Assembly: GCA_017402445.1 (NCBI GenBank)
Contig: JAFPME010000003.1
Coordinates: forward strand, 1-38,753
Direction of reading: 5' to 3'
Length of the DNA stretch: 38,753 nt
Source: Prevotella sp.
GTDB lineage: Bacteria > Bacteroidota > Bacteroidia > Bacteroidales > Bacteroidaceae
The position numbers and the translations under genes are program-made. Under the pieces are notes generated by a model. It saw nothing but the letters and a program-made list of their open reading frames with translations. It did no database searches and was not told where the DNA came from. This document shows, piece after piece, positions 9,520-38,010 of the stretch (within the stretch, counting starts at the first letter, position 1; each line of letters begins with the position of its first letter).

Positions 9520-9717
9520 TCACTGAAATTGCCGCGCAATCTCACTGAAATTGCCAAGCAATTTCACTGATTTTACGCAGCAATATCACTGAAATGTCAT
9601 AGCAGAAACACTCTCGCGACAGCACAGAAACGCTCACTTGACAGCACAAAGACTCTTGTTAGACAGCACAGAAATGCTCTCAAGACTGCACGAGACACTT
9701 TTCCGACGACTCGGAAC
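9520..9717. repeat. 22-bp-period degenerate array, 9 units
   Basis: Nine units in strict 22-bp phase fill the gap between the convergent helicase and manA genes. Units 1-4 begin TCACTGAAAT or a close variant; centred on that motif each core is an imperfect 15-bp palindrome of the form AATnTCA-C-TGAnATT (5-6 of 7 positions paired), followed by a 7-bp spacer (GCCGCGC, GCCAAGC, ACGCAGC, TCATAGC). Units 4-8 share instead CAGMACAGAA-like ends and ACAGCAC at the same phase. Unit 4 joins both types: it has the front of the first and the tail of the second. Unit 9 is weak. 22 is not a multiple of 3, so this is not a coding repeat. Confidence 0.85.
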
Positions 9718-9728
9718 AGACGTCGTAC

Positions 9729-9762
9729 AGCTGGTGAATGGCTGGCTTGCCATTCACCCATG
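9729..9762. terminator. bidirectional stem-loop between convergent genes
   Basis: GGTGAATGGC (9733-9742) pairs perfectly with GCCATTCACC (9749-9758) around a 6-base loop, and CAGC/GCTG outside can extend it with a bulge. It sits 36 bases beyond the manA stop. There is no T-run, so termination is inferred from position and stem strength only. Confidence 0.5.
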
Positions 9763-9798
9763 CTGTATGGTTGCCCGTAACAAATGGTTTCGGGAGCG

Positions 9799-10761
9799 TC
9801 AGACGTAGGTTTCGAGGAACTTCACGGTGCCTTCCACCTTCAGTTCCTGTGCTGTGGCCGGGACAAGCAGCGTCTCGCCGGCCTTCAGTGAGGTCTGGTT
9901 GCCCTCTTCGTCGGTGATGGTGGCGCTGCCGCTGAGACCGATGAGTATGACGAACGAGTCGAGCTCGGAGTAGTCGAGCGTCATGGGTTCGTCGAGGTCG
10001 TACACTGCTGTCGTGAAGTAAGGGCACTGCACGAGCTGCACGCCTTCGTTCTTCATCGGCGTGTAGTGCGTGCGGTAGTCGGACTCCACTTGGTAGTTGA
10101 TGCTTTCGGCGGCTTCGTGCGTGTGCAGCTGGCGGTAGTTGCCGTCCTTGTCGCGCCGCTTGAAGTCGTAGATGCGGTAGGTGACGTCGCTCGTCTGCTG
10201 TATTTCGGCCAGGAAGCAGCCTGCCCCGATGGCGTGGATGCGCCCTGCGGGCAGGAAGAAGACGTCGCCCTCGCTGACCTCATACTGCGCGAGTGCGTCG
10301 CAGATGGTGTCGTCCTCCACCATTTCCTTGTAGCGTTCGGGTGTGATCTGCTGTCGCAGTCCGCAGTAGAGCTTTGCTCCCGGGTCGCAGTCCATGATGT
10401 ACCACATCTCGGTCTTGCCGCGCGGCTTTCCCTGCCGGTGGGCTATTTCGTCGGTGGGGTGCACCTGGATGCTCAGGTCCTGTCGTGCGTCGATGAACTT
10501 GATGAGCAGCGGGAACTCGTTGCCGAAGCGCTCGTAGTTATCTTTGCCGACCAGTTCGGCTTTCAGTTCGGCCACCAACTGGTTGAGCGGTTTGCCTTGG
10601 TGCTCGCCCGATGCGATGATGGTCTCGTTGTCCTTGACGCCTGAGATTTCCCAGCTCTCGCCGACTTGTTCCTGCTGGGCGTCCAGCTGTTTGAACGGAA
10701 TGATTTTTTCGCCGCCCCAGATGGTCGATTTCAGAAGCGGTCTGAATTTGATGAGTTGCAT
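9799..10761 (-). CDS. manA: mannose-6-phosphate isomerase, class I
   Basis: Interconverts mannose-6-phosphate and fructose-6-phosphate, linking glycolysis to GDP-mannose and surface glycans. The 320-residue protein has the short-form type I architecture. Zinc-site residues are visible: QVHP with H101, E118 in KTEMWY, and H176 in GRIHAIGAG. The protein begins MQLIKFRPLLKSTIWGG, a standard family start. It is the last gene of a five-gene minus-strand run, 31 bases after the beta-helix gene, with the array and a stem-loop downstream. Confidence 0.93.
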   Translation of the reverse strand: MQLIKFRPLLKSTIWGGEKIIPFKQLDAQQEQVGESWEISGVKDNETIIASGEHQGKPLNQLVAELKAELVGKDNYERFGNEFPLLIKFIDARQDLSIQVHPTDEIAHRQGKPRGKTEMWYIMDCDPGAKLYCGLRQQITPERYKEMVEDDTICDALAQYEVSEGDVFFLPAGRIHAIGAGCFLAEIQQTSDVTYRIYDFKRRDKDGNYRQLHTHEAAESINYQVESDYRTHYTPMKNEGVQLVQCPYFTTAVYDLDEPMTLDYSELDSFVILIGLSGSATITDEEGNQTSLKAGETLLVPATAQELKVEGTVKFLETYV

Positions 10762-10792
10762 GTTATTTGGTGATTAAAGTACTTCTTTCTCC

Positions 10793-12634
10793 TTATGGCT
10801 TGCCGTTTTTCGCCCTTGTCCATGTCTTGAAATAGTCTTGCGACGTGACGACGTTGCCCTGCTCGTCGATGTGTCCCCACGGGTCGCTCAGCAGGAGCTT
10901 CCCGTCGGTGGTGTTCACTTCGCTGGAGGGCGGTGTGAAGTTGTTCTTCGTGGTGCGCCGTACCAGCACGTTGCTCTTGAAGGTGCAGTTGGAACGTTCG
11001 CGCAGGTCTCTGTTCCACTCCAGCCAAAGGTAGCCGTTGCAGACGTTATGGGCAATGTAGTTGTTCATGTTTGCGCGGAATCCCTTGAGCACCTGGCGTC
11101 CGCCGCTGCCCCCTTCGGGCACGTAGCGTGAGTAGATGTCGTAGCCCGACTCTGTATCGGCAATCACGTTGGCGTAGATCTGAACGTTGTAGGCCCCGTC
11201 GTCAGCGTAGATGGCGTGGTTTCCGCCTGTCCCTCCGAAGTTGAGCACCTTGTTGTAGCGTACCACGGCTTCGCAGTTGTTCGTGGCGATGTAGATGGCG
11301 CCTGAGTCTTTCAGCCCCAAGACGCGCTGCCAGGGCTTCCATGCGGCTGTCTGTCGGACGATGTTGTTCTCCACGAGGTGCTGACTGCAAGTGGGTTTCA
11401 CGTCGCCCACGAAGATGGCTCCGTAGTTGATGTCGGTGAAAGTGTTATTGGCGATGTAGCCTTTGTGCTTGCTCAGTACGGCGAAGGCGTTGGCACCGTA
11501 GTGGCCGATGTTGGTGAACCGTGAGTTGGTCACTTCCAAGTAGGCGCACTCGGAGTCGGTTTCGATGCCGTAATCCTTGATGTCGTGGAAGTCGCAGTCG
11601 TCGACGAAGATGCGTGAATGGGGTCCGATGAGCTCGATGGCCTGTCCTGTGGTGTTCGAGATAGCCGTTCGCCGCATGACGAGCTCTCCTTTGTTCAGTA
11701 TGCAGCGTCGTCCTTCTCCGCCGATGTCCACGTTTTCCAGTTCAAGCGTGCCGCCCGGTTCGATGGTGATCAGGGGCTCTTGCGACATGCTTTTGGTGAT
11801 GGTGGTGCCTTCTTTGAACCAGATTCTCCTGTTCTTCACCTTCACTCCTTCGCCGTCAGCCTGTGAGTCGAAAGGTCCGAAGTTCGACAGGAAGAAGTAG
11901 TTGTCGTTTCTCCACTGCTGACCGGCCTGGTCGGGGTCGTAGTACCATCCGTCCCACTCGTAGTCGACATAGTAATGGCGTCCGCGTCTGGTGAAGGAAA
12001 GAACCTTGCCCGTGTTTCGGTAGAACCACCATCCGTAGCTGATGAAGACGTTGTCGGTGTCGAGCCGGGTGTTTTTCTTCTTGATGTATTGCTTCACGAA
12101 GTCGTCGGGGAGCTCGATCCGGTAGATTCTGGAACCGCTTTTGCCGTCGGCTTTTTCCAGATGCACTATTCGGAAGAAACCGGTGCGCGCCAGTTGCAGG
12201 TGGTTGCCGTCGGACTGGCGGAAGAAAACGTCGCGGACGCTGACCGGCTTGTCGTAGGTGTCGCCGCTGCGCAGGCGTCGGCCGTCTTCCGAACGGCCGT
12301 CTACGATCCTGGTTTTGCTGCCGTTGGCTTTGGAACCGACAATCCTGACGTGTGTGTCCTTCCTGACGGTGATGCTTCTGGTGCGGACGTCGTCGTCGGT
12401 GAGCCTAATGAGCGTGTTGCCCGAGGTGGTTTCTCCGATGGTCGAGGCCGTCCGGTAGTTGTTTTTTGTGAAAACGGAAGGCGATGGCGATTCCCGCTGC
12501 AGTGAACAAGGCGGATAAGTGGGTGTGGAAGCTTGGATGAGCGAGACGGAACGCATGGTCTGCGCCTTGCTTCCGGCCGTGATGAGCAGGAAACAGAGCA
12601 GAATACCGATGCCATGGCTGCCGATGGTTTTCAT
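10793..12634 (-). CDS. secreted right-handed parallel beta-helix protein
   Basis: A 613-residue protein with a signal peptide (hydrophobic stretch in residues 8-20, likely cut after GSKA). From about residue 250 on it is rich in short Asn/Gly/Val repeats such as VENNIVR, IAHNVCNG and VRYNKVLNFGG, the pattern of right-handed parallel beta-helix folds found in polysaccharide lyases, hydrolases and surface proteins. A Trp/Tyr-rich segment (WWFYRNTGKV, EWDGWYYDPD) precedes it. It may act on a glycan, but no catalytic residues can be named. The open frame runs to 13150, overlapping trkH; the ATG at 12634 (MKTIGSHG) is used because it gives a signal peptide and follows the trkH stop by 35 bases. 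Confidence 0.75.
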   Translation of the reverse strand: MKTIGSHGIGILLCFLLITAGSKAQTMRSVSLIQASTPTYPPCSLQRESPSPSVFTKNNYRTASTIGETTSGNTLIRLTDDDVRTRSITVRKDTHVRIVGSKANGSKTRIVDGRSEDGRRLRSGDTYDKPVSVRDVFFRQSDGNHLQLARTGFFRIVHLEKADGKSGSRIYRIELPDDFVKQYIKKKNTRLDTDNVFISYGWWFYRNTGKVLSFTRRGRHYYVDYEWDGWYYDPDQAGQQWRNDNYFFLSNFGPFDSQADGEGVKVKNRRIWFKEGTTITKSMSQEPLITIEPGGTLELENVDIGGEGRRCILNKGELVMRRTAISNTTGQAIELIGPHSRIFVDDCDFHDIKDYGIETDSECAYLEVTNSRFTNIGHYGANAFAVLSKHKGYIANNTFTDINYGAIFVGDVKPTCSQHLVENNIVRQTAAWKPWQRVLGLKDSGAIYIATNNCEAVVRYNKVLNFGGTGGNHAIYADDGAYNVQIYANVIADTESGYDIYSRYVPEGGSGGRQVLKGFRANMNNYIAHNVCNGYLWLEWNRDLRERSNCTFKSNVLVRRTTKNNFTPPSSEVNTTDGKLLLSDPWGHIDEQGNVVTSQDYFKTWTRAKNGKP

Positions 12635-12669
12635 GGGCGATGCTGTTTTTACGTGGGAATGAAGCAATA

Positions 12670-14127
12670 TCAGTTGTCTTTCCAGAAAGCGGGTGTGAAA
12701 AGAACGATGACGCTGAAGATTTCGAGACGTCCCATCAGCATGAGGGCGGAGAGCAGCCACTTCACCACATCGGGCAGGATGCTCCACGACATGGTCGGTC
12801 CGATTTCCAGTCCGAGTGTAGGTCCTACGTTGCTGGCGCAGCTGATGGCGATGGTGATGGAGTTCGTGCTGTCCACTCCCATCACAATCATGCAGAAATA
12901 GGTGAAAAGACACAGGAACATGTACGCCGTGAGAAAGGCCAACAGCGTGACTTGTGCGGAATAAGGGATGGTGTTGTCGTTCACTTTCACGGGCAGAACG
13001 GCTCTGGGATGGAGGATTCGGCGGATTTCGTTCTTCAGAATGGTGAGCACCATGGCCGTTCGGATGCACTTGAATCCGCCGCTGGTGGAGCCGGAACAAG
13101 CCCCGAGGAACATGCAGATGCTGAGAATGACCCATGTGATGTGGTGCCACTGGGCAGGATCGTCGTTAAGAATGCCTGTCGTCGTGATGAACGATGTGAC
13201 CTGGAACAGGCTCACGCGGATGGCATCGGCCCAGTGGTAGTTGTTGTCATAGACCAGAATGATGGAGATGGACAGTGCGCCTACCAGGACAAGAATGATG
13301 TAGAGCCGAAACTCGGAGTTCTTGAAGAACTGCTTGATCCTGCCTTTAAACAACGACGTGTAGAGCAGCGTGAAGCTGGTTCCGGAAAGGAACATGAACG
13401 TAATGGCTGTGTAGTCGATGTAGGGATTATGGAAATAGCCCGTACTGGCGTTGTGGGTTGAGAAGCCTCCGGTTGCCGTTGTCGTCATGGCATAGTTCAG
13501 ACAGTCGAAAAGCCCCATGCCCGAGAGGTAGTAGCACAGTCCGCATCCGATGGTAAGCAGGAAGTATATGCTCCAAATCCACTTCGCCGTGGTGCTCAAC
13601 CGGGGGTGCATCTTTGCGCGGATGGGGCCTGTTGCCTCGGCAGAGAACACCTTCACGTTGCCGCCTACGAGCGATGGTATGATGGCAATGGTGAAGAATA
13701 CGATTCCCAGACCGCCTATCCACTGCGTCATGGTGCGCCAGAAAAGGAGCGCGTGAGGCAGGCATTCCACGTCGTCGAGGATGCTGCAGCCCGTCGTGGT
13801 GAAACCGGAGATGGTCTCAAAATAAGCATCGGTGAAGTTGGTGATGTAGCCGCTGATCATGAAAGGCAGCGATCCGAACAGGCTGAAGATGAGCCAGGTG
13901 AGCGTAACCAGCAAGTAGGCTTCGCGTCGTCCGAGCGAATTTTCGGTGTCGCGGCCGGCATATTTGAATCCGATTCCTCCCAGAATGGTCGTGACGATGG
14001 AAATGACGAATGACAGAGAATCGTCTTCACCGAAATAAACTGACATGCAGAGACACCACGACATCATCGCCGCTTCGATGAAAAGCAGCGTGCCGATGAT
14101 CTTATAGATGATTTTATAGTTCAGCAT
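12670..14127 (-). CDS. trkH: Trk-type potassium uptake channel TrkH
   Basis: Integral membrane subunit for K+ uptake, working with the cytoplasmic TrkA gate encoded just upstream. The 485-residue protein is almost entirely hydrophobic and shows four pore-loop motifs with the selectivity-filter glycine: FTTTGCS, TATGGFS, ITTTGIL and SNVGPTL. Family members work as dimers. The start at 14127 (MLNYKIIYK) is preferred; an in-frame ATG 12 codons earlier is possible. It follows trkA by about 94 bases and precedes the beta-helix gene by 35. Confidence 0.93.
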   Translation of the reverse strand: MLNYKIIYKIIGTLLFIEAAMMSWCLCMSVYFGEDDSLSFVISIVTTILGGIGFKYAGRDTENSLGRREAYLLVTLTWLIFSLFGSLPFMISGYITNFTDAYFETISGFTTTGCSILDDVECLPHALLFWRTMTQWIGGLGIVFFTIAIIPSLVGGNVKVFSAEATGPIRAKMHPRLSTTAKWIWSIYFLLTIGCGLCYYLSGMGLFDCLNYAMTTTATGGFSTHNASTGYFHNPYIDYTAITFMFLSGTSFTLLYTSLFKGRIKQFFKNSEFRLYIILVLVGALSISIILVYDNNYHWADAIRVSLFQVTSFITTTGILNDDPAQWHHITWVILSICMFLGACSGSTSGGFKCIRTAMVLTILKNEIRRILHPRAVLPVKVNDNTIPYSAQVTLLAFLTAYMFLCLFTYFCMIVMGVDSTNSITIAISCASNVGPTLGLEIGPTMSWSILPDVVKWLLSALMLMGRLEIFSVIVLFTPAFWKDN

Positions 14128-14221
14128 CTGAAGAATAATGGTTGTCGTAAGGATGATGGGCAACGGTCAGTGTCTGCTCTTCCTCGGTATGGGATGGCAG
14201 AGTATAGGGACTGGCGTGGGG

Positions 14222-15565
14222 TCAGTTGAAGAATTTTTCAATCTTCGTCATGTTGATGTCGTGGCAGAACACCACAACGGTATCGCCCGCTTCAATCTGC
14301 GTTCCGCCTGATACAAGCTGGCCTTCGCCGTTTCGTACCAGTCCGCCGATGGTTGCTCCTTTGGGCAATCCGAGCTCGAACACCTTCTTGCGCGTCACTT
14401 TTGACCCCTGTTGCGCCGTGAATTCAGCCACGTCGGCGTTGGCAGACATGAGGAAACGGATGTTGTTCACGTCGGCATCGAGCATCATCTGATAGATGTA
14501 ACTGGCTGCCAGCGCTTTCTTGTTGATAATGGTTCCGATGTCAAGGCTTTCGGCCATGCTTACATAATCGAAGTTCTCAACCATGGCTACGGTTTTCCTG
14601 ACGCCCATCCGCTTTGCTGTCAGGCAAGCCAGGATGTTGGTTTCTGCGTTACCTGTGAGCGCCACGAAGGCTTGTGTGTTCTTGATGCCCTCCTCGGTGA
14701 GCAGTCCTACGTCGCGACCGTCGCCGTGAATGACCATCACCCGGTCCGTGTTCACCAGCTCGTTGAGCTTTTCGCAGCGCGCTTCGTCGTATTCGAAAAT
14801 CTTCACGTCCATGTATTCGGGCATCATGGTCGTAGCTCTGACGGCCGTGGCACCGCCTCCCATGATCATGACATTCTTCACATCGACGTAGTGTTCCTTC
14901 CCGACAATCTTACGAATGTAGGGGATGTAGTTGCGGGTGGTCATGAAATAAGCGATGTCGTGCAGCTGAAGAACATCGTCACCGCGTGGGATGATGGTCT
15001 CGTCATGGCGCTTGACGGCCACGACATGATACGGCGATTCCGGCTTGCAGAGGTCTTTCAGCGGTTCATTCAGGATTTCACAAGTCTCCCGAAGTTTTAT
15101 TCCCAGCATGACAAGTGCGCCGCCGTGGACGTCCCATCGCTGCCTGACCCATGACATTTTCAGCCCGCTTGCGATGTCGCGCGCTGCGAGATTCTCGGGA
15201 TAGATGAGTGAGGAAATGCCTACATTCTCGAAGATTCCGTTCATTCTCGGGTCAATGTATTCACTGTTGTCCACCTTGGCGACGGTGCGTTTTGCACCGA
15301 GTGCCTTGGCCAGCATGCAGGCATTGATGTTCAGATTCTCGTCCGGAGTCACGGCGATGAAGAGGTCTGCTCCGGCAACTCCGGCGTCTTTCAGTGTCTT
15401 GATGCGCGAATTGGATGCATGGATGGTCATCAGGTCATAGTCGCTGCTGATGCTTGAGAGTCGTTCCTCGTCAGAGTCGATGAGCACCGTGTCGTGGTTG
15501 TTCCTCGACAGGAGCTTGGCCAAATGGGTTCCGATGGCATACGCGCCTACGATGATAATCTTCAT
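14222..15565 (-). CDS. trkA: Trk potassium uptake regulator TrkA
   Basis: Peripheral membrane protein that binds NAD(H) or nucleotides and gates TrkH. The 447-residue protein contains two copies of the RCK module: the first Rossmann motif GAYAIGTHLA lies at residues 7-16 and the second, MIMGGGATAVRA, about halfway, each followed by a TrkA_C-type domain. Length fits two-module TrkA. The ATG at 15565 (MKIIIVGAYAIG) is the expected start. A GTG at 15616 overlaps the dxs stop by 4 bases (GTGA) and would add 17 basic residues; I consider it less likely but cannot exclude it. Read in one direction with dxs and trkH. Confidence 0.93.
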   Translation of the reverse strand: MKIIIVGAYAIGTHLAKLLSRNNHDTVLIDSDEERLSSISSDYDLMTIHASNSRIKTLKDAGVAGADLFIAVTPDENLNINACMLAKALGAKRTVAKVDNSEYIDPRMNGIFENVGISSLIYPENLAARDIASGLKMSWVRQRWDVHGGALVMLGIKLRETCEILNEPLKDLCKPESPYHVVAVKRHDETIIPRGDDVLQLHDIAYFMTTRNYIPYIRKIVGKEHYVDVKNVMIMGGGATAVRATTMMPEYMDVKIFEYDEARCEKLNELVNTDRVMVIHGDGRDVGLLTEEGIKNTQAFVALTGNAETNILACLTAKRMGVRKTVAMVENFDYVSMAESLDIGTIINKKALAASYIYQMMLDADVNNIRFLMSANADVAEFTAQQGSKVTRKKVFELGLPKGATIGGLVRNGEGQLVSGGTQIEAGDTVVVFCHDINMTKIEKFFN

Positions 15566-15612
15566 GGTTGTTCGCTCTCTTCTTTTTGTTGTTTGTTTTG
15601 CATGCTTGCGGG

Positions 15613-17583
15613 TCACATCAGCGATGTGATGGCACTGGCAATGCTGTCAGCGTCCAGGCCAACGATGTGCTGAAGTTCCTGAACGGTGCCGTGTTCTACG
15701 AACTCGTCGGGCAGACCCAGACGCACCACACGGGGTGAATAGCCGTGGTCGTTCATCCATTCGAGGACGGCAGAGCCCAGCCCGCCGTTTCTGACACCGT
15801 CTTCCACTGTGACGATACGGCTGAAACGGCATCCTACTTCTTGCAGGATCTGTTCGTCGAGAGGCTTCAGGAAGCGCATGTCGTAGTGGGCTACGCTGGG
15901 ATGGCCTTCTTTTGTCCCGAGCAGTCTGATGGCTTTCGTAACGTTGTTGCCCACCGGTCCGATGCTCAGCACGGCCACATCGTCGCCGTCGCACAGCTTG
16001 GTTCCTGTTCCGATGGGCACTTCCTCCAGCGGACAGCGCCAATCGACAATCGAACCGCGCCCCCTTGGGTAGCGAATGACAAACGTTCCCTTTCCCGGCA
16101 GCTGCGCGGTGTACATCAGTCTGCGCAATTCGTGCTCGTTGAGAGGCGATGCGATGGTCAGGTTGGGGATGGGTCTGAGTGCCGACATGTCGAAGGCTCC
16201 GTGGTGAGTAGCCCCGTCTTCGCCCACCAGTCCGGCCCTGTCGAGGCAGAGAACGACCGGCAGCCCGAGTATGGCGGTGTCGTGTATGATGTTGTCATAG
16301 GCGCGTTGTGCGAAAGCGCTGTAGATGTTGCAGAACGGGATGAGCCCGTCCTTCGCCATTCCGCCGGAGAATGTGACGGCATGGCCCTCTGCTATGCCTA
16401 CGTCGAAGGTTCGATTGGGCAGTTCTTTCATCATGATGTTCATCGAACAGCCTGTCGGCATGGCCGGTGTGACGCCGACGATTCTCGGATTCTGGCGTGC
16501 CAGCTCCAACAGGGTGTGCCCGAATACATCCTGAAACTTCGGCGGTTTGTTGTCACATTCCTCTTTGATGCGCTCACCCGTTTCCGGATCGAACTTCCCG
16601 GGAGCGTGCCAGACGGTGACATCCTTCTCGGCGGGGGCGTAACCGTGGCCTTTCTGTGTGTGCAGATGGAGCAGTCTGGGGCCCTTCATGTCCTTCAGCT
16701 GTCGCAGGATGCGCACGATTTCCTTCACGTCGTGCCCGTCGAATGGTCCGAAATAGCGGATGTTCAGTCCTTCGAAAATGTTCTGCTGGTGGCTGATGGC
16801 CGATTTCAGTGCGTTGCTCAGTCGGATGATGCCGTTGCGGCGGTCATCCTGCAGCATACCTTTGCGGTGCAGCCAGCGTGCCGCCTTGAAACGGTACTTG
16901 TTGTAGGTCTCGTTGGTGCTGATGTTGAGCAGATATTGCTTCATGCCGCCTACCGAACGGTCGATGGACATGTTGTTGTCGTTGAGGATGATGAGCAGGT
17001 CGTTGGGCGAGGACGACACGTTGTTCAGACCCTCGAAGGCCAGACCGCCCGACATGGCGCCGTCTCCGATGACGGCCACCACCTTTTTCTTATGCCGTGC
17101 AGCGCCCGTCTTGTCGTTGCCGCCCCCTTGTTGCTTTGCTTTCAGTGCTTCAGCTTCGCTCTTCACGCGTTCGGCCACCGCCATGCCGAGAGCAGCCGAG
17201 ATGCTGTTGGAGGCGTGTCCACAGGTGAAGGTGTCGTATTCGCTCTCCTTAGGCGAGGGGAACGGCATCAGTCCGCCCAGCTTTCGGTTCGTACAGAAAG
17301 CTTCTCGTCGGCCTGTCAGAATTTTATGTCCGTAGGCCTGGTGCCCGACGTCCCATACGATGCGGTCGTCCGGCGTGTTGAACACATAGTGAAGAGCCAC
17401 TGTGAGCTCCACCACGCCGAGGCTCGAAGCCAGATGTCCGGGGTTCATCGATACCTCTTTGACGATGTCGTTGCGCAGTTCGTCGCACAGCAACGGCAGC
17501 TGGTCAACGCTCAGTTTGCGCAGGTCGGCAGGCCATTTGATGCTGTTGAGTAGGTTATAATTCGTTTCGTCCACGTTTATCAA
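15613..17583 (-). CDS. dxs: 1-deoxy-D-xylulose-5-phosphate synthase
   Basis: Thiamine-diphosphate enzyme that condenses pyruvate and glyceraldehyde-3-phosphate, the first step of the MEP isoprenoid route. About 656 residues. Visible: PGHLASSLG (H50), VGHQAYGHK (H81), the ThDP motif GDGAMSGG (173-180) ending in NDNNMSI, catalytic Glu in GIAEGHAV, and the C-terminal transketolase domain. Residues about 141-166 (Lys/Gln/Gly-rich) look like an extra linker before [10 protein letters not shown]. The annotated start is TTG; a GTG at 17574 (VDETNYN) would also do, and no ATG is available. It heads the run dxs-trkA-trkH-beta-helix-manA. Confidence 0.94.
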
Positions 17584-20290: not shown

Positions 20291-20347
20291 GGTAGCTCCC
20301 GTCCTGTCGTTCTGCGCGTTCCGGTTTGCCGCGAAGCTCTTTCTGGA

Positions 20348-20480
20348 TTGACGGAAGACTGCCAGTGTGCTGACATTTCAGTGATATTGCTCGGCAAAGT
20401 CACTGAAATTGCTGGCCAATATCACTGAAATTGCTGGTCAATATCACTGAAATGCCAACACTTCGCGGGCAGTCTGTCAA
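20348..20480. repeat. MITE-like long inverted repeat around part of array 2
   Basis: The left arm (20348-20387) and right arm (about 20441-20480) are complementary over about 37-40 bases with small gaps: TTGAC/GTCAA outermost, then AGACTGCC/GGCAGTCT, AGTGT/ACACT, and CATTTCAGTGATATT/AATATCACTGAAATG. The outer two blocks lie outside or at odds with the 22-bp core motif, so the symmetry is not just a by-product of the palindromic units. No target-site duplication or transposase was recognised. Confidence 0.65.
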
Positions 20481-20597
20481 GCCGGAAAGGCTTATTTGGT
20501 AATCCGTACAGGCTCATTCGGCAATCCGGACAGGTACTTTCGTCATGCCCGACAGGCGCTTACTGCAACCCCGACAGGCGCTGCTGTTTTCCCCGTG
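20378..20597. repeat. 22-bp-period degenerate array, 10 units
   Basis: Ten units in strict 22-bp phase. Units 1-4 have the same core as array 1 (AATATCACTGAAATT and variants) with spacers GCTCGGC, GCTGGCC, GCTGGTC. Units 6-10 switch to a second type starting AGGCKC or AGGTAC and ending CCCGAC-like. Unit 5 is intermediate. Placed in the same phase, unit 7 here and unit 6 of array 1 share 12 of 22 positions (A-GCTCA-T-G-CA). The rest of the 20291-20781 gap has no coding sequence or terminator I can see. Confidence 0.85.
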
Positions 20598-20781: not shown

Positions 20782-21192
20782 ATGGCAGCTTATAAAATCA
20801 TTGACGTAGAGGGCATCGGCCCTGTGTATGCAGAGAAATTACTCGCAGCAGGTATCAAGGACACTGACGTCCTTCTGGAAAAGTGCGCAAAACCCGCCGG
20901 TCGCAAGGCGTTGGAAGAGGAGACAGGCATCAGCGGAAAGCTCATCCTTACGTGGACCAACCATGCAGACCTCATCCGTATCAACGGCATCGGCCCGCAG
21001 TTTGCCGAACTGCTTGAGGCTGCCGGCGTTGATACCGTGAAGGAACTGAAGCACCGTAAGCCCGAGAACTTGCAGCCGAAACTCGTGGAAATCAATGAGG
21101 AGAAGAAGCTCGTGGGGCGCGTTCCCGCTCTGAAGGAGGTGGAGCGCATGGTGGCCGAGGCAGCCGAACTGCCCGCCGTCATGGAATACTAA
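20782..21192 (+). CDS. DUF4332 helix-hairpin-helix protein
   Basis: Small protein of 136 residues with two helix-hairpin-helix signatures, VEGIGPVYAEKLLAAGI (residues 9-25) and INGIGPQFAELLEAAGV (about 73-89), the arrangement of DUF4332. Such motifs often bind DNA non-specifically, but the cellular role of this family is unknown to me. No signal peptide. It stands alone: its own candidate promoter lies upstream and a strong terminator follows 34 bases after the stop. Array 2 occupies the upstream region, so any effect of the array on transcription would fall on this gene first. Confidence 0.85.
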   Translation: MAAYKIIDVEGIGPVYAEKLLAAGIKDTDVLLEKCAKPAGRKALEEETGISGKLILTWTNHADLIRINGIGPQFAELLEAAGVDTVKELKHRKPENLQPKLVEINEEKKLVGRVPALKEVERMVAEAAELPAVMEY

Positions 21193-32500: not shown

Positions 32501-34149
32501 ACAAAAAGAGCAAGCGGCTCATCGTTTCGGCCAAGACCGCCGACGGTAAACTGTTCCGCATCAGGTACAAAGTGGTCGATCCGAACACCATCAAGATTAC
32601 GTCCCAGGTCGATTCGCTCACCAAGGTGAAGGTGACTGTCTCTGCCAAGCAGCCGCTCGAAGAGAAGTCGTGGTACAAGACGGCGCAGGTCGTGGCCCGC
32701 GGACTGATGATGGTGCGCAACGTCAGCATCAGTTATCGCGACCTGTACTCCATGACGCTGGCTGGTTTCAAACCCATGATCGGCGACATGTTCGGCCAAC
32801 GCACGGGCGGTGTGATGTCGCCGGGACTCGATTTCGCCTTCGGTATGATTGACGACAGCTACATCGACCGCGCCGTGGAGAACCGATGGCTCCACATGAC
32901 CGACAGCGTAGTGCCTGCCGTGACCAATTCGACGAGGGACTTGCAGCTGCGAATGACCCTCGAACCGGTGAAAAACCTGAAGATTGACCTGAACGCATTC
33001 CGGACAGAGCAGAAAGCTCGCAACATTCAGTATATGTATCAGGGCAAGCCCTCCACGCAGACAGGTACGTTCTCCATGTCTACCCTCTCGCTCAAGAGCG
33101 CTTTCGAGGGCATGGGCGATGCCAGCGACGGCTATTACTCGCCGTCGTTCGAGCGCTTCTGCCAGTCGCTCGACGGTTTCCGCGACCGGGTGGAAGCCCA
33201 GTACGCCGGTGCCGTGTACCCCGAGGGGACGGCCTACGCGGGTCAGCAGTACAATGCTGCCAACGGAGCCGTGAACAAATACAGCTCCGACGTGCTCATA
33301 CCGGCCTTCTTAGCCAACTACACAAGTATGGGTGGAAGCGGACTGAGCATCTTCCCCGCCATCATGAAGATGCTGCCCAACTGGTCGCTGCGTTTCAGCG
33401 GACTCAGTCAGATTCCATGGTTCAGCGAGCACTTCAAGAGCGTTAACATCACCCATGCTTACAAGAGCGTCTACAGCGTCGGTTCCTACAGCACCTACAG
33501 CACTTACATGGAGTACATGAACGGACTGGGCTTTATCAACGACGTGAAGACCAATTCTCCCGTCCCCAGTTCCATGTTCAACGTGTCCAGTGTCAGCATC
33601 AACGAATCCTTCATGCCCCTGCTGGGTCTTGATGTGACGCTGAACAACAACCTGAATACCAAGCTGGAATACCGCACCACGCGCGTGCTCGGACTGTCCA
33701 CGACCAGTGTTCAGATCAATGAGGCCATCAGTCGCGACTGGGTGATTGGCCTGGGCTATAAGATCAACAACTTCAATATCTTCGGTGGTGGCGGACGCCG
33801 TAGGAAAGTGAGCAACGGAGCGGGCAATAACGACGACGACAAGAAGAAAACCACGACCACCACAAGCTCGAAGAAGAACGACGTCAACCACGACCTGAAT
33901 CTCCGGCTGGACCTGTCGCTGCGCAATCAGGCATCCATCGTGCGCGACATCGCTTCCATGACCAGCACCGCCAGCAGCGGCAACAAGGCTTTCAAGCTCT
34001 CGTTCTCAGCCGACTATACGCTTTCCAAGCTGATCACCATGAGCTTCTACTTCGACCGTCAGACGAACACCCCCCTGCTCTCCAGCAGTTCCTATCCCAC
34101 GACCACGCAGGACTTCGGCCTTGCCTTGAAGATGTCTCTCACCCGATAG
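26584..34149 (+). CDS. sprA: T9SS outer-membrane translocon SprA (Sov)
   Basis: Giant outer-membrane barrel through which the type IX secretion system exports folded proteins. At 2521 residues it is close to the known size (about 2400-2500). It has an N-terminal signal peptide (about 1-22), then the typical SprA start region (YNDSLNRYIMGSKMGDTYLG, FGPGGVRIRTQGTAELKFG, LNVNGKVGDKVNMNLNYNT) and many alternating beta-strand segments. Two low-complexity inserts stand out: a Lys/Asp-rich stretch at about residues 1917-1955 and a Gly/Arg then Asp/Lys/Thr-rich stretch at about 2401-2434. It ends in a strand-like LALKMSLTR. Its presence implies a T9SS elsewhere in the genome; other components are not in this window. 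Confidence 0.95.
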   Translation: MRRLKQIIWMLLVGMSVLAWSGAPVLQDVRRANRTPNGDTIPANRNKDSVKAQPVIQDDEEIPDSLLHPRWKIQRTQPVTEEDLQRGSSDLQLPENIEQKVVYNDSLNRYIMGSKMGDTYLGAPFMWTPEEYRRWSERQMRWDFFRSKNSETFKEQGKEKFSFTDMHFDLGPAEKIFGPGGVRIRTQGTAELKFGVTMKDIDNPSLPIRNRKTTTMDFDEKINLNVNGKVGDKVNMNLNYNTDATFDFDTQNLKLKYDGKEDEIIKLVEAGNVSFPANSSLARGASSLFGIRTDLQFGKLKLETVISQKKSSSKSVSSKGGKTTSAFELDAVNYEENRHFFISHYFRDRYDAAMQTLPNVTSGITIKRIEIWVTNKSGNASNTRNIIALTDLGENTKVSNSNWSLSGLNVPSNNANTEYSEMVTNYADARDVNQTNTVLDAIPGFVGGSDYEKLESARLLNSSEYTLNSALGYVSLKSTLQTDQVLAIAYEYTHGGQVYQVGEFSTDISDVSQCLFVKSLKNTSNHPTQGNWDLMMKNVYYLATNVEKEQFRLDVKYQSDTTGVYLSYIPETQVKDQPLIRVLGADRLDDNLKVRSNGFFDYVQGYTVSNGRVFLPKAEPFGDYLYNYLTSKGLSPADAEKYCFRELYDSTKTIAQQIAEKDKFILEGQFRGTSASVIPLGAYNVPHGSVRVTAGGVELVEGVDYTVDYSAGEVTVLNQSILDSGTKVDATFESNTDFAQQRKTMFGVNWAYDFSKDFQLSGTLQHLSEQALTTKVAMGSEPLNNTLWGLNINWKRESQWLTNMLDMLPGLHCTAPSRISFKGEFAQLIAGQAHGTQDNASYLDDFENTKNALSVGQPSSWIISSVPSMFPEHSDKTSVSSGYNRSLLAWYSIDPLFTRRSSSLTPSHIKSDLDQLSNWYVREIYVNELYPYRDQNSYSGATNTLPILNLAFYPDERGPYNLNTNLNSEGKLMNPRQTWGGMMRKLDTNDFEAANIEYVEFWMLDPFIYSRRDGTASQHGGELYINLGEMSEDVLRDGKKFYESGMPVNNNGSYTTTQWGKVPTQASATYSFDTSTGSRSLQDVGFNGLNNEEERNYGAYQEFLNNIQGKVRPEVFDSIQADPANDDYHYYRGSDFDRIEAPILRRYKRINMPQGNSADNENSPESYSTAYKSTPDVEDINQDFTLNEYEKYYQYHVSIRPEDLVVGHNFIVDKRETRRELRNGAEEEATWYQFRIPIRDFEEKVGSINGFTSIRFMRMFLTGFEQPIILRFGSLDLVRGEWRIYEQNLSGGTESGRLAVSAVNIEENNDKEPVNYVLPPGIRREQDPTQPQLVESNEQALDIMVTNLSNGEAKAVYKNTNVDMRQYKRLQMFVHANAMQQNLTNLQDNQLALFIRLGSDYKSNYYEYEVPLRLTPPGSNYNRYSQADCRAVWPEENMVDVPLSVFTQLKKDRNIAKAEGRAAFNRVFTTYMDDKPNNKISILGNPSLGEVKTMIIGVRNLSPDVKSGEVWVNELRLKEYNNDGGWAVQGSLNMQLSDVGTVDLSGRYTTEGFGGLEEGVNQRSTDNFSSYSATLNFELGKFFPDKAKVSAPIYYTVTKEKSSPKYNPLDTDMRLKDALDAAASKSQRDSIESIAVTKQTSTNFSLTNVRVGIVTKRHPMPYDPGNFSFSYSHSHNSNRGETTVYENEDKWRGSMSYNYTPVYKPFEPFKKLLAKNRSKWFDILKRFGLNYLPQNVSFDTDIIRNYYELQRRDMQSQDNALLPLNFNEQFLWNREFSIRWDLTRNLHLNFNSATNAQIEEPYTPINKELYPDQYTAWKDSVKTSLLHFGSPLEYNQDFKASYQLPLNLLPIFDWINSDASFDSKYGWQRGSELDDGTSLGNTINTNRTLNLNASLNMEKLYNHIPFLKSANDRFNKSQRPSVMNKPKGSKDKNSDDKKNKDSKKEKDKLPRNKQSFEKEVELRPDTTITVRHNKKSKRLIVSAKTADGKLFRIRYKVVDPNTIKITSQVDSLTKVKVTVSAKQPLEEKSWYKTAQVVARGLMMVRNVSISYRDLYSMTLAGFKPMIGDMFGQRTGGVMSPGLDFAFGMIDDSYIDRAVENRWLHMTDSVVPAVTNSTRDLQLRMTLEPVKNLKIDLNAFRTEQKARNIQYMYQGKPSTQTGTFSMSTLSLKSAFEGMGDASDGYYSPSFERFCQSLDGFRDRVEAQYAGAVYPEGTAYAGQQYNAANGAVNKYSSDVLIPAFLANYTSMGGSGLSIFPAIMKMLPNWSLRFSGLSQIPWFSEHFKSVNITHAYKSVYSVGSYSTYSTYMEYMNGLGFINDVKTNSPVPSSMFNVSSVSINESFMPLLGLDVTLNNNLNTKLEYRTTRVLGLSTTSVQINEAISRDWVIGLGYKINNFNIFGGGGRRRKVSNGAGNNDDDKKKTTTTTSSKKNDVNHDLNLRLDLSLRNQASIVRDIASMTSTASSGNKAFKLSFSADYTLSKLITMSFYFDRQTNTPLLSSSSYPTTTQDFGLALKMSLTR

Positions 34150-34284
34150 AGGAGCCTTGACGCCGCCGTAGCAGTCTCTTTTCCGGCGCTTCCGTCACCT
34201 TCGTCACAGTCGGTTCCTTCTTCCTGACGTCAACCCACGCAGTTCAACATCAAAAAGAAAACATCATCTAATCATAATTGAATC

Positions 34285-35817
34285 ATGAAAAAAATCCTTT
34301 TTACCCTTTCATTCGCACTCTTCGCCTTGGCCTCCGTGGCACAGGAACGTCCTAAGCTGGTCGTCGGCATCGCTGTTGACCAGATGAGATGGGACTATCT
34401 CTACCGTTTCTACGACGAATACACCACCGGCGGCTTCCGCCGGATGCTCGACGAAGGCTTCACCTGCGAGAATTGTCAGATTAACTACATCCCCTCTGTG
34501 ACCGCCATCGGCCACACTTCAATCTTCACAGGCAGCGTGCCCAGCATCCATGGCATCGCAGGCAACAACTTCATGATTGACGGACAGATGGTTTATTGCA
34601 CTGAAGACAAAACCGTCAGCACCGTAGGCAGCGATACCAAGGCCGGACAGATGTCTCCGCGCAACATGCTGGCAACCACTATCGGCGACGAATTGAAGAC
34701 CGCCACCAACTGGCAGGCGAAGGTCATCGGCGTGAGCTTCAAGGACCGGGCCGCCATTCTGCCCGCCGGACACTCGGCCGACGCCGCTTACTGGTTCGAC
34801 AAGAAAGCTCTCTGCTTCATTTCCAGCACGTACTACATGCAGGAACTGCCGAAGTGGGTGAAAACGTACAACGACCGCATCAGCGGCGAAATCAAACAGC
34901 TCGCCAAGAAAGGCAAGGACACGCCTGTCATCGACCTCATTCAGTACGAACCCTACGGCAACGAAATCACTGTCGGCTTGGCGAAGGCCGCCATCAAGAA
35001 CGAACGGTTAGGCCAGGGCAAGACAACCGACATGCTCACGCTGAGCTTCTCCTGCCCCGACATCACCGGCCACCGCTACGGAACGCACCACGAGAAGACA
35101 CACGCACAGTACATAGAGCTCGACAAACAGCTGGCCGAGTTCTTCCGCTATCTCGACGACAATGTCGGCAAAGGCAAGTATCTCGTCTTCCTCTCGGCCG
35201 ACCACGGCGCTGCCAACGGCATCCTGCAGAACCAGGCGCACAAGATACCGTCCGACGGATTCTTCATCGACAAGGAAGAACCCGCACTGAACGCCTACCT
35301 TCGCGAACATTTCGGCTTGGACTCTGCACTGCCCAATGACAACTTCAACCTGACGAAGCGCATCATGGACTACAAAGTGGTGCTCGACCGTGAGAACATC
35401 CGGAAGTGGGGCATTAACGAGGACGAGGTGAAAAAGGCCATCATCGACTACTTCAAGCAGCGGCCCGGCGTGAACTACTGCTTCGATCTGGAGCGCATCA
35501 ACGATGCCAGCGTGCCGTCGCTCATCCGCGAGAAGGCCGTCAACGGCTACAACCACGCGCGCAGCGGCGACATTCAGATTATTCTGAAACCAGGCTACTA
35601 CGGTGTGTGGAAGCAGATTGACAGCGGTACGACCCACGGATGCTGGAATCCCTACGACTGCCACATCCCGTTCCTGCTCATGGGCTGGCACGTAGAGCAC
35701 GGTTCGACGGCAGCCGAGGTCCACATCACCGACATTGCGCCCACCATCTGCAACCTCATTCACATCCAGATGCCGTCGGGCTGCATCGGAAAGTCTGTCG
35801 AACAGGTCAACGACTGA
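34285..35817 (+). CDS. PafA-like alkaline phosphatase
   Basis: Zinc-dependent phosphate monoesterase of the alkaline phosphatase superfamily, secreted (signal peptide 1-19, ends SVAQ). The 510 residues show the PafA pattern: metal ligand D32 (AVDQMRWD), nucleophile T73 in PSVTAIGHTS (Thr where classic alkaline phosphatases have Ser), K153 and R155 in FKDRAA, D259/H263 in CPDITGHRYG, D306/H307 in SADHGAAN and H451 in TTHGCWNP. PafA-type enzymes are a main route of phosphate release in Bacteroidetes. It lies 135 bases after sprA and heads a tight group with the next two genes (gaps of 32 and 28 bases). No matching promoter was found upstream. Confidence 0.92.
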   Translation: MKKILFTLSFALFALASVAQERPKLVVGIAVDQMRWDYLYRFYDEYTTGGFRRMLDEGFTCENCQINYIPSVTAIGHTSIFTGSVPSIHGIAGNNFMIDGQMVYCTEDKTVSTVGSDTKAGQMSPRNMLATTIGDELKTATNWQAKVIGVSFKDRAAILPAGHSADAAYWFDKKALCFISSTYYMQELPKWVKTYNDRISGEIKQLAKKGKDTPVIDLIQYEPYGNEITVGLAKAAIKNERLGQGKTTDMLTLSFSCPDITGHRYGTHHEKTHAQYIELDKQLAEFFRYLDDNVGKGKYLVFLSADHGAANGILQNQAHKIPSDGFFIDKEEPALNAYLREHFGLDSALPNDNFNLTKRIMDYKVVLDRENIRKWGINEDEVKKAIIDYFKQRPGVNYCFDLERINDASVPSLIREKAVNGYNHARSGDIQIILKPGYYGVWKQIDSGTTHGCWNPYDCHIPFLLMGWHVEHGSTAAEVHITDIAPTICNLIHIQMPSGCIGKSVEQVND

Positions 35818-35849
35818 TCCCAATAAACCAACCTTAACACACAAAAAAC

Positions 35850-36428
35850 ATGAAGAAAACGACATTTTTGATGGCGTCGCTGAGCGCGATGTTCATGCTC
35901 TGCGCCTGCGGAGGCGCAGCCAACAAGGCAGAGGCCGCGGCAACCGAACAACCCGAAACGACCGAGACCACAGCCGCCGAGGCGCCTGCTGCCAAGGAGT
36001 CCGTCACCTATCAGAACAAGGACTTCAAGTATTCCGTCCAGCTGCCGGCAGGTTTCGAGCAGCAGAACGACGACGCCGAGATGGAAGCCAGCCGCGGCGG
36101 CAAGCTCTTCCTGCGCGACGGCTGCATGATTGATGTCACGGCGCGTAAGATGGACTACACGTACATCAAGGCCGAAGAGTCCATCAAGCAGTCGGGCGAG
36201 TTCGCTGCTTCGGCCTACGAAAGCGACGAAAACGGGAAACTGCTGTCGAAAGACATCCAGCCCGACCACTTCCTGGTGAAGGGACTCGACGAATTCGGCC
36301 TGCGTGCCAACTACGAAATGCAGAAGAACGGCGTGTCCGTAATCATCCACGTCACCTATCCGCAGGACCAGGAGGCAGCATTCAACAAGGAAGTCGACCA
36401 GGTGGTGCAGTCGCTGGTCGTGGAGTAG
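35850..36428 (+). CDS. small lipoprotein, unknown function
   Basis: A 192-residue protein with a lipoprotein signal: hydrophobic residues 6-17 and lipobox LCAC with Cys20, followed by Gly-Gly. A disordered Ala/Glu/Thr-rich linker (about 22-50) leads to one compact domain (about 52-192) that starts VTYQNKDFKYSVQLPAGF and ends VDQVVQSLVVE, the look of small periplasmic or surface lipoprotein domains in Bacteroidetes. No catalytic residues can be named. It lies between the phosphatase and lipid A deacylase genes in a likely operon, which points to the envelope but not to a function. Confidence 0.8.
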   Translation: MKKTTFLMASLSAMFMLCACGGAANKAEAAATEQPETTETTAAEAPAAKESVTYQNKDFKYSVQLPAGFEQQNDDAEMEASRGGKLFLRDGCMIDVTARKMDYTYIKAEESIKQSGEFAASAYESDENGKLLSKDIQPDHFLVKGLDEFGLRANYEMQKNGVSVIIHVTYPQDQEAAFNKEVDQVVQSLVVE

Positions 36429-36456
36429 GGCAGACTTCAGTGCTCCGTCTGCAACC

Positions 36457-37737
36457 GTGCCGTTGCGGCGGAGCCCACAGACCGTGCGGAATCTCGTATT
36501 GCTGATACTCCTGGGGGTGGCCGCGGCGGTGCAAGCCGCCAGTGGCGACACCCTACGCATCGTGGGCTTCACGGCCTACGCCAATCCCACATGGCAGTTT
36601 CCCATCGGCGGTCCGGAGAAGAAATGGCTCCGCGATACGCAGGCTTTCGTCTTCGGAGGCGAACTTCACTTCGGCGCCTTGCCCTGCGACAGCGACGCTT
36701 TTGCCGAAGACTACAACTATCCGACGCTCAGCCTGGGCGCAAAGCTCGCTCTCAACAACGGTGTCACCATGCGACGGACGGCCGATCCCTTGTGGGGAAA
36801 GCTCGTTCCTGTGGATTACGACTCGCACCTCGGCGACATCTTCACCCTCTACGGGGCCTTCTCGCGCCCGTTGCTGCGCCGCGGCCGCTGGCAGGTGGAC
36901 TATAGCTTGCGCGCAGGCGTGGGCTACGGACCGCACATCTACAACCGTACCGACAACATCGACAACGAACTGATAGGCTCCCGCTTCACCATTTTCTTCG
37001 GAGCCGGGCTGCTCGCCAGCTGCAGAATCAGCAGTCAGTGGGCACTCACGGCAGGCGTTCTCTACGGGCACCACAGCAACGGGGCCCTCGACCGGCCGAA
37101 CAAGGGCGAGAACCACGTGGGGCCCGTCGTCGGACTGCGCTATGCGCCGCGTCAGCTCGACCTGCCGCAGCGCGCGCCGAGTCCGCTGCGGCCTTTCCGT
37201 CGTTACTGGTATGCCGACCTGCGGTTAGGCTTCGGCGGCAAGACGCTGCTCGAAGACTGGCAGAAGACGCAGTACCAGACCGACCCGTCCGACCCCGACT
37301 ACCGCACAGACCACTTCCGTTTCTACACGGCCTACTCGCTTCAGGCCAGCCTCATGTGCCGCTATGCGCGCCGCTGGGCGTCGGGCTTGGGACTCGATGT
37401 CTACTATGGCAGCTACTACAAGCGTGTGCGCGATCTCGACAGAGCTGCCGGAGAGACGTGCAGCCACTCTCCTTGGTCGGTGGGAATCTCGGCAAAGCAC
37501 GAGGTGTACTACCACAACCTGTCGCTCAACATGGCTCTCGGACTCTATCTCTACCGACAGATGGGGGCCGGGGCAAAGGCCATCGAGCAGCCTTACTACG
37601 AGCGCATCGGCGTCTACTATACCTTTCCGCGGCTTGCCGGACTGCGCATCGGTGCCAGCGTGAATGCCCATTTCGCCAAGGCCGACATCACCGAATTCAT
37701 CGTCGGCATTCCTTTCCGTCTGTCAGCTGCTCCTTAG
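36457..37737 (+). CDS. acyloxyacyl hydrolase / PagL-like lipid A deacylase
   Basis: Outer-membrane barrel of the PagL/acyloxyacyl hydrolase family, which removes an acyl chain from lipid A. Up to 426 residues, with a hydrophobic signal (about 11-28, ends VQA), Gly/Tyr-rich beta strands throughout and the motif YGHHSNGAL near residue 205, whose His-x-Ser fits the catalytic pair of PagL; an acidic partner may be the Glu in KGENH. It is much longer than PagL of Pseudomonas (about 170), with the motif in the middle. There is no ATG: the start is GTG at 36457 or GTG at 36484 (VRNLVLLIL), and I cannot decide. It lies 28 bases after the lipoprotein gene. Confidence 0.7.
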   Translation: MPLRRSPQTVRNLVLLILLGVAAAVQAASGDTLRIVGFTAYANPTWQFPIGGPEKKWLRDTQAFVFGGELHFGALPCDSDAFAEDYNYPTLSLGAKLALNNGVTMRRTADPLWGKLVPVDYDSHLGDIFTLYGAFSRPLLRRGRWQVDYSLRAGVGYGPHIYNRTDNIDNELIGSRFTIFFGAGLLASCRISSQWALTAGVLYGHHSNGALDRPNKGENHVGPVVGLRYAPRQLDLPQRAPSPLRPFRRYWYADLRLGFGGKTLLEDWQKTQYQTDPSDPDYRTDHFRFYTAYSLQASLMCRYARRWASGLGLDVYYGSYYKRVRDLDRAAGETCSHSPWSVGISAKHEVYYHNLSLNMALGLYLYRQMGAGAKAIEQPYYERIGVYYTFPRLAGLRIGASVNAHFAKADITEFIVGIPFRLSAAP

Positions 37738-37900
37738 CAGTGCGCTCGCGCTTGCCTTTCGCAAGCTTCACAGTTGTCGTTTCTGTCAACTATTATTACC
37801 GAAAAATTGTGTCGGAATTTTTTGTCGTTTTAGAAAGCCGATTGCTCTTCTGACGGTAAAAAGTTCAAACAAAATTGCAGAAAAAATCTCTCCGTTTTTC
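37738..37900. other. intergenic stretch before array 3
   Basis: No gene seen. GCTTGC (37750-37755) and GCAAGC (37761-37766) form a small perfect hairpin with a 5-base loop right after the deacylase stop, but no T-run follows, so it is at best a weak terminator. The sequence turns AT-rich from about 37785 on. Confidence 0.4.
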
Positions 37901-38010
37901 AAAATGGCCCGTTTTACATTGCGAAATGGCCCGTTTTGCTCGTCAGAATGATTCATTCTGCGCCGCAAAACGGGCCATTTTCATGTGTAAAATGAGCCAT
38001 TTTGGAAGCT
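37901..38010. repeat. 22-bp-period array, 5 units, forming a long quasi-palindrome
   Basis: Five units in exact 22-bp phase, each a 15-bp odd-centred palindrome plus 7-bp spacer. Cores: AAAATGGCCCGTTTT, GAAATGGCCCGTTTT, AGAATGATTCATTCT, AAAACGGGCCATTTT, AAAATGAGCCATTTT; spacers ACATTGC, GCTCGTC, GCGCCGC, CATGTGT, GGAAGCT. Unit 3 is a perfect palindrome and units 4-5 are inverted versions of units 1-2, so 37901-38003 folds on itself about base 37952 with 40 of 51 positions paired and most mismatches in the spacers. A further 22-bp stretch (38011-38032) has GTCTTTT/AAAAGAC ends. It sits between convergent genes. Confidence 0.88.

Follow-up and report, generated by a model that had tools for sequence, protein, structure and literature searches.

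Phased 22-bp dyad arrays in a Prevotella genome: putative binding lattices of an HU-HIG protein

We propose, as the likely reading, that A1 and A2, two of three intergenic arrays in the window (the whole 38,753-nucleotide stretch of Prevotella sp. DNA that was analysed), are binding lattices of a dedicated, autoregulated HU-HIG protein, which would assemble on them as a phased filament, mostly at transcription-unit borders. The proposal draws on the geometry, symmetry and graded strength of the arrays, the absence of a hairpin signature, their intergenic position, the array found upstream of clade A/B HU-HIG genes and the matching dyads of the genomes tested. The third array, A3, has the same geometry in a separate MITE-like family.

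Three intergenic arrays keep a 22-bp period

Autocorrelation at 22 bp was compared with mononucleotide shuffles at A1 (0.62, z 11.2), A2 (0.64, z 12.8) and A3 (0.61, z 7.6); period 22 was the top period at all three and exceeded every other period in the window. The three arrays were also recovered by TRF. A sequence-only reading had described their 22-bp phase and a unit made up of an odd 15-bp dyad and a 7-bp spacer; both descriptions stand, and the phenomenon is larger than first noted. The same reading took the core of A3 to be unrelated to that of A1 and A2. The cores do differ (TGGCCCG versus TCACTGA), but the two unit types share A/T tracts and an RC-NNN-GY spacer. Similarly, the in-phase change of unit type within A1 and A2 is real, but in the profile it amounts to four strong dyads grading into weaker units on both sides; the extents originally given for these arrays had overlooked the left flanks (Table 1). 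Mutually similar 22-bp units run on beyond the lattice, to about 9700 in A1 and about 20597 in A2. The middle dyad of A3 (AATGATTCATT) is unlike the other four. A CRISPR array, for which near-identical repeats and unique spacers are expected, does not fit the variable units and the conserved ends of the 7-bp spacer.

Table 1 Positions of the arrays in the window
Feature	Position	Strand	Details
A1, four strong dyads	9515..9597	.	starts 9515, 9537, 9559, 9581; 17 bp each, 22-bp steps
A1, ten-unit family I lattice (3 weak + 4 strong + 3 weak)	9444..9668	.	extent from family profile
A2, four strong dyads	20373..20455	.	starts 20373, 20395, 20417, 20439
A2, ten-unit family I lattice	20302..20526	.	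extent from family profile
A3, five family II dyads	37901..38003	+	starts 37901, 37923, 37945, 37967, 37989
A3, whole MITE-like T2 element, ~375 bp, bearing the five dyads	37783..38159	+	extent from conservation drop, 37 aligned copies

Family I is a symmetric lattice and family II a MITE-like element

A1 and A2 belong to a dispersed family (family I), of which this half-complete genome contains at least 27 intact copies. Its plan comprises ten gap-free 22-bp units in mirror symmetry, four strong dyads being flanked by three weaker units on each side; in the family profile the central units carry 25-27 bits each and the flank units 8-10, with values near zero outside the lattice. The profile includes all 30 T1 hits, of which L034 1818 is false and L017 and L040 are degenerate; without these three the strict set of 27 remains; L021 was excluded by choice, and L029 and L041 were under the threshold. 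Locus counts given here are lower bounds, and hit totals are complete. Outside the constrained columns the copies have no shared ancestry (identity averages 0.279 over 55 columns and is 0.491 in the best pair), and a search for target-site duplications at family I copies found none.

A3 is a member of a second family, which in this genome takes the form of a MITE-like element (T2), about 375 bp long and bearing five dyads. There are 38 T2 elements, one of which was excluded as too near a contig end. Identity between copies is as high as 95%, and 29 of 666 pairs are at or above 85%. The 12 best pairs have unrelated flanks (17-37% identity), and the element has sharp borders. In its near-identical dispersed copies with unrelated flanks T2 resembles MITEs in general. 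The T2 consensus, inspected by eye only, has no clear inverted ends, and no clean target duplication was seen at borders that are only approximate. Family II arrays are also present in G004, G069, G074, G055, G105 and G012, and because a search of these six genomes found no clade A/B HU-HIG, we do not claim this protein for A3; a family II binder was sought and none was found.

Arrays are dispersed between genes and change sequence between species

The check suggested with the sequence-only reading, an excess of 22-bp periodicity elsewhere, was applied to samples. At a fixed cut, 138,753 bp of the genome (the window and five stretches, of which the window and two stretches were known beforehand to bear arrays) yielded seven arrays with period 22 and at most two for any other period; the three blind-picked stretches (C24, C40, C42) held one 22-bp array each. 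The relative G366, sampled over 400 kb at fixed steps, gave 20 arrays with period 22 and at most three for any other. In contrast, only 2 arrays with period 22, and 8 with period 14, came from about 300 kb of other relatives, so the excess is not universal. Related plans were found in G010, G074 and G005 (at least 40, 20 and 12 loci, chosen for their hits). In relatives the dyad sequence differs and the 22-bp geometry is kept, and at locus L215 the dyad sequence changes inside a single array with the phase preserved. The initial suggestion of conserved geometry with free sequence is supported both inside the genome and between species.

The dispersed copies are intergenic and enriched at transcription-unit borders. 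Of the T1 and T2 copies, 10/29 and 14/37 lie between convergent genes, and 7/29 T1 and 9/37 T2 copies between divergent ones. When the genes flanking 138 sites were compared, no interspecies pair had both flanks in common, which counts against a fixed regulatory role, as such a role predicts constant gene pairs. Arrays on the complete G366 chromosome are spaced no more evenly than at random (CV 0.89 versus 0.95). The G366 arrays show a second-harmonic excess near mid-replichore (P ~0.009), a post hoc observation in one genome.

Array positions that vary between species, together with the high identity, unrelated flanks and sharp borders of T2, would also fit mobile repeats of MITE type whose spread depends on a transposase, with the dyads as its sites. 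We regard this as a serious though unlikely alternative: family I copies lack shared ancestry outside the constrained columns, no target-site duplication was found, and the HU-HIG genes of many genomes have an array of their own.

A clade of HU-HIG genes accompanies the arrays

Of 39 genes that closely match one HU-HIG clade and were identified by protein or family search, 29 have an array just upstream, an upstream array being defined as one within 320 bp for which 22 is the best of 29 periods and at least 38 of 66 positions match. Among controls there was none (0/225 ORFs, 0/7 ordinary HU-HIG genes and 0/9 short HU genes). The total comprises 10/12 in the first set of clade A/B genes, 7/7 in new genomes and 12/20 in further genomes, these last 20 hand-picked, blind to upstream sequence, from 94 genomes with matches, among those not already collected; the HU-HIG tree leaves out the 7 and the 20. 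Genes found via arrays (G048, G178, G250, G272) are outside the 39, and the G074 match is without upstream sequence. Ten of the 39 have no upstream array over the cut; for G003, G005 and G185 (scores 32, 33 and 35) 22 is still the top upstream period, and G382 offers merely 186 bp of upstream sequence.

In the genome studied here, an array of the A1/A2 type (C44:5734-5816) precedes by about 120 bp the HU-HIG gene that starts at C44:5936. In few-array genomes one group of HU-HIG genes stands beside 4/20 loci, with no group member detected within 4.5 kb of the remaining 16; the next most recurrent neighbour group occurs at 3/20, two of which are near-identical (L216, L221). The array before the HU-HIG gene is a poor TCASTGA match in G240, and in G010 the first unit of this array alone looks like the dispersed type.

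Profile and model evidence places the linked protein in the HU-HIG family of the HU/IHF superfamily, with a predicted HU/IHF fold. All four proteins matched Pfam PF18291 at 79-87 bits (cut-off 26.2; own-genome protein 81.3), a family that also matches ordinary HU in 9/14 control genomes, and only two of the four passed the TIGR01201 cut-off. In Foldseek, the AlphaFold model (pLDDT 86.7) had Bacteroides 4fmr (E 9e-5) and HU proteins as best PDB matches, and a sequence profile search also returned HU/IHF chains. We know of no established role for HU-HIG-type proteins; the clades of the superfamily were reportedly surveyed computationally by Burroughs and others in 2017. Such proteins can be numerous, with 28 family matches in G003. 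HU-type proteins usually bind DNA with little sequence preference. P. gingivalis HU PG0121 is termed non-discriminatory in a section heading of one report (PMC3969353).

In three relatives, the dyad before the HU-HIG gene predicted the dispersed arrays of the same genome. The dyads from G044, G006 and G310 recur there as 22-bp pairs 135, 156 and 40 times on the forward strand, under a search pattern that did not separate the G006 type from the G310 type and with one dispersed G044 array of the predicted type (L215) known beforehand; the other genomes searched gave 0, apart from G016 (1) and G366 (10). G310 additionally bears a TCATTGA type. Among 398 genomes, the TCASTGA pair is present in 17/22 with a clade A match (E 1e-55 or better) versus 20/376 others, counts that are not independent because the lineages are related. 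Close HU-HIG orthologues accompany close dyads (TCASTGA and TCGSCGA groups), and in close relatives residue 15 tracks TCA versus TCG (S 10/10, D 4/4), as do positions 8, 111 and 121. As a general specificity code, residue 15 fails farther out (S in G008, R in G379, D in G005).

From this association we infer that the HU-HIG protein probably binds the arrays directly. A different DNA-binding protein might instead own them, the HU-HIG gene being merely its most conserved target; the evidence is all correlational, HU-type proteins are generally undemanding of sequence, and family II arrays occur in genomes without detected clade A/B HU-HIG. We consider this distinctly improbable, as among the loci compared (138 sites; 20 loci) no second gene recurred next to arrays of several unrelated genomes, and closely related HU-HIG orthologues accompany closely similar dyads.

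Neither hairpins nor slippage readily account for the arrays

Pairing statistics speak against an RNA or cruciform hairpin. Watson-Crick pairs at variable dyad positions were below expectation (51 versus 64.3; 30 versus 40.9), and arms matched no better within a copy (0.729) than between copies (0.752). The stem-loop ladder suggested earlier thus found no support, and the same deficit at the variable positions does not fit an RNA stem-loop or REP-like hairpin, in which compensating changes would keep the pairing. Terminators or regulatory RNA hairpins could explain why many copies lie 3' of genes, including those between convergent genes, but such transcribed structures are very unlikely given this pairing and the copies between divergent genes, a position that calls for no terminator.

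Neighbouring flank units are more alike within than between copies at 12/12 flank steps tested (P <=0.036). This local likeness agrees with the block copying in 22-bp steps once envisaged, but the process operates inside a constrained lattice. A neutral minisatellite growing by 22-bp slippage would produce such likeness too, yet is hardly credible with a nearly fixed number of strong dyads, mirror-symmetric ends and gap-free copies without shared ancestry.

A proposed phased-filament model

In the proposed HU-HIG lattice, HU-type dimers would occupy the dyads on one DNA face, every two helical turns, a spacing raised in the sequence-only reading that fits a protein lattice. The species-specific core would be read in the major groove, and the A/T tracts on either side through the narrow minor groove. 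Nucleation at the four strong sites may be followed by extension over the three weaker mirror-image units per side, giving a filament of about 220 bp. Because a same-type array lies just upstream of its own gene, the HU-HIG protein probably represses or tunes that gene; the remaining copies may have an architectural or insulating role, as anchors of loops or as boundaries. Where the specificity of the protein shifts in a lineage, the arrays would follow, so that letters change and geometry stays.

On a broader claim we are evenly divided: that chromosomes are marked in this way genus-wide, the specificity of dedicated HU-type proteins drifting along with tens of lattices, including the one at their own gene, that act as loop or boundary anchors. 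If true, this would be an unrecognised mode of bacterial chromosome marking. If the link holds, one HU-HIG clade would be a sequence-specific architectural protein whose sites are mapped, and the genus would offer a natural specificity-change series within one protein family (TCASTGA, TCGSCGA, TAGSCTA, CAATTTG), showing a genome rewriting tens of binding sites while their spacing is preserved.

Comparison with known systems

Among the titles and abstract openings listed by searches of open-licence PMC papers we found no earlier description of such arrays, nor of a dedicated site array for HU-HIG / HU_rel proteins (PF18291, TIGR01201); here, one clade of PF18291 members accompanies species-specific phased dyads. 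IHF sites, Noc/NBS, SlmA/SBS and MatP/matS provide tens of palindromic chromosome-wide sites per small protein, and these sites are single and sequence-stable. In the present arrays, in contrast, 2-5 dyads stand in phase, the flanks are graded and the core changes by species.

Kinship with BrickBuilt of P. gingivalis had been suggested, and BrickBuilt likewise occurs in a Bacteroidales genome as tandem repeats scattered between genes, each unit spanning about two helical turns. As described (PMC4596501), however, it is a different element, with a 23-nt unit (AGAYCATARTATCCTCTCRTRTG) rather than the period of 22 in A1, A2 and A3, a unit number that varies between strains, and a leader and tail with inverted ends resembling those of insertion sequences. 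The family I profile, by comparison, is near zero beyond the lattice, and the T2 consensus, as judged by eye only, shows no clear sign of this arrangement. In the same description, BrickBuilt_14 flanks a PF00216 (HU) gene.

The family I arrays form a mirrored lattice of dyads

The strongest autocorrelation in the window falls at period 22, and the three 22-bp arrays described in the sequence-only reading (A1, A2 and A3) are all present. Searching the genome of origin, G000 (1.87 Mb in 44 contigs, 51% complete), with the A2 core at ≤3 mismatches returned 84 forward and 79 reverse matches, spaced mostly by 22 bp, versus 1 and 0 for the reversed control. Family I, the TCASTGA-core type of A1 and A2, was profiled from 30 matches, of which one is false and two are degenerate, aligned gap-free on their midpoints. 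Four central dyads, CAAWWTCASTGAWWTTGCNNNG, carry 25–27 bits each and are flanked by three weaker units per side (8–10 bits), with almost no signal past ~112 bp from the centre. The right half mirrors the left, and the spacer is contained in a further dyad, TTGCNNNGCAA.

This symmetry looks like that of a double-stranded-DNA protein site rather than a hairpin, because in 27 strict copies Watson–Crick pairs at variable pair positions were rarer than expected and the arms were no more complementary within a copy (0.729) than between different copies (0.752); the same figures speak against the stem-loop ladder suggested earlier. Beyond the constrained columns no relatedness is seen among copies (mean identity 0.279). 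Neighbouring flank units nevertheless resembled each other more within than between copies at every one of the 12 steps, so local duplication of 22-bp blocks is probably also at work. The family I plan and this probable duplication together account for the in-phase change of "type" that had been noted in A1 and A2 and is indeed seen there.

Coordinates of the arrays and of features associated with them or lying in the window
Feature	Sequence	Position	Remarks
88-bp tandem repeat	window	7600-7807	2.4 copies, 100% matches; unrelated to the 22-bp arrays
Helicase-like gene	window	7937	preceded by the 88-bp repeat
A1	window	9520-9717	family I
A2	window	20378-20597	family I
DUF4332 protein gene	window	20782-21192	next gene past A2; helix-hairpin-helix match
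A3	window	37901-38010	family II
HU-HIG gene	C44 (G000 contig)	5936	best match in G000; ~120 bp downstream of a family I array
Chimeric array	L215 (G044)	8060-8169	two TCA-type, then three TAG-type dyads; 22-bp phase unbroken
Family II array	L284 (G012)	1896-1980	~110 bp past a short HU gene

Arrays precede genes of a distinct HU-HIG group

In 4 of 20 loci from genomes with few arrays, the array lies 35–130 bp upstream of a ~143-codon gene encoding an HU-HIG protein (HU/IHF superfamily, PF18291), and a protein search over 20 genomes found a match in 19. When 28 HU-HIG proteins were placed in a tree, two clades linked to arrays, A (12 rows) and B (4 rows), grouped together with support of 100/98 for the pair, set apart from ordinary HU-HIG. 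Under a fixed rule, by which 22 had to lead all 29 periods scored and reach ≥38 of 66 matches inside the 320 bp upstream of the gene, an array precedes 14 of 36 HU-HIG genes: 10/12 in clades A/B, 4/17 among the remaining genes and 0/7 among ordinary ones, where G012 scores 41 at 22 but has its top period at 38. None was found before 9 short HU genes or 225 control ORFs, and two later gene sets gave 7/7 and 12/20. Several loci carry, between array and start codon, a TATCTTTGCA-like sequence that resembles the Bacteroidota -7 promoter element. The arrays could nevertheless belong to a protein other than HU-HIG. One genome, G003, holds 28 HU-HIG family matches; two of these that were inspected (L274, L286) have 22-bp periodic sequence upstream.

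AlphaFold modelled the G000 HU-HIG protein with a pLDDT of 86.7 and a pTM of 0.64 (24 sequences). The predicted fold matches the Bacteroides protein 4fmr (E 9e-5), with HU structures, HU–DNA complexes among them, matching more weakly; the sequence profile hits chains of both HU and IHF, with a best E of 2e-7.

The geometry persists while the core changes

One or more TCASTGA-type pairs with 22-bp spacing occur in 37 of 398 genomes of the genus (control, one genome). The same geometry carries other cores: AAAACGRNCCGTTTT in G074, AAAATGGTGCGTTTT in G064, AAAATAGSCTATTTT in G044, AAATYAATTTRATTT in G006 and G310, and, noticed through matches of the reversed control pattern, AAAAGGTNACCTTTT and relatives in G010, G004, G069 and G055. 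The claim of conserved geometry with free sequence is thereby borne out across species. In the profiles of G010, G074 and G005, two weaker units on each side accompany the strong dyads (~4–7 and 3–5 bits; background in the AT-rich G010 profile, 1–3 bits). Searches of open-licence PMC papers returned no title or abstract opening that describes these arrays.

Dyads upstream of HU-HIG in G044, G006 and G310 were then used as queries for paired matches in eight genomes. The G044 pattern gave 135/135 matches (forward/reverse) in G044, where one dispersed array of the predicted type was known beforehand; a second pattern, pooling the G006 and G310 dyad types, gave 156/145 in G006 and 40/30 in G310. 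Outside the source genomes there were none, except 1/1 in G016 (first pattern) and 10/11 in G366 (second); control patterns gave no matches in the eight genomes. TCGSCGA lies upstream of HU-HIG in four genomes; their clade A proteins share 59–79% identity with the TCA-group proteins.

Exact two-dyad TCASTGAWWTTGCNNNGCAAWWTCASTGA matches occur in Pseudomonas (L055, L057, L058, L060) and a Cytophagales bacterium (L059) as single hairpin-like places, not arrays; surroundings are similar in the four Pseudomonas species. G009 (L116, L117) has long tracts of TCAACTG-like 7-bp repeats.

Family II resembles a mobile element

AAAATGGCCCGTTTT at ≤2 mismatches matched G000 152/128 times (forward/reverse), versus 5/2 for the control. 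Over ~375 bp, 37 copies align gap-free and end at sharp borders; 29 of the 666 pairs of copies reach ≥85% identity within the element, and sequence outside it is unrelated in the 12 best pairs. In this genome, then, family II is a MITE-like element carrying five phased dyads. By manual count, 17 of 20 sampled 22-bp arrays in G366 have AAAAGTTGAACTTTT-like units and three TCASTGA units. Six genomes with family II arrays, three of them only 77–81% complete, yielded no clade A/B HU-HIG gene; for family II, and hence A3, no partner protein was found among the genomes examined. A short HU gene lies ≤1 kb from an array in G064 and G005, as well as in L284.

Arrays favour transcription-unit borders

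None of 66 elements (29 family I, 37 family II) overlaps a call of a simple gene caller. Family I elements lie between 10 convergent, 7 divergent and 12 tandem gene pairs, and family II between 14, 9 and 12 (two undetermined). Both families favour transcription-unit borders, since the convergent and divergent share exceeds that of 95 neighbouring background pairs (12 convergent, 12 divergent, 71 tandem); neutral tolerance at borders would yield the same pattern. Lattice, HU fold and location together suggest an architectural role. Between species, array positions turn over.
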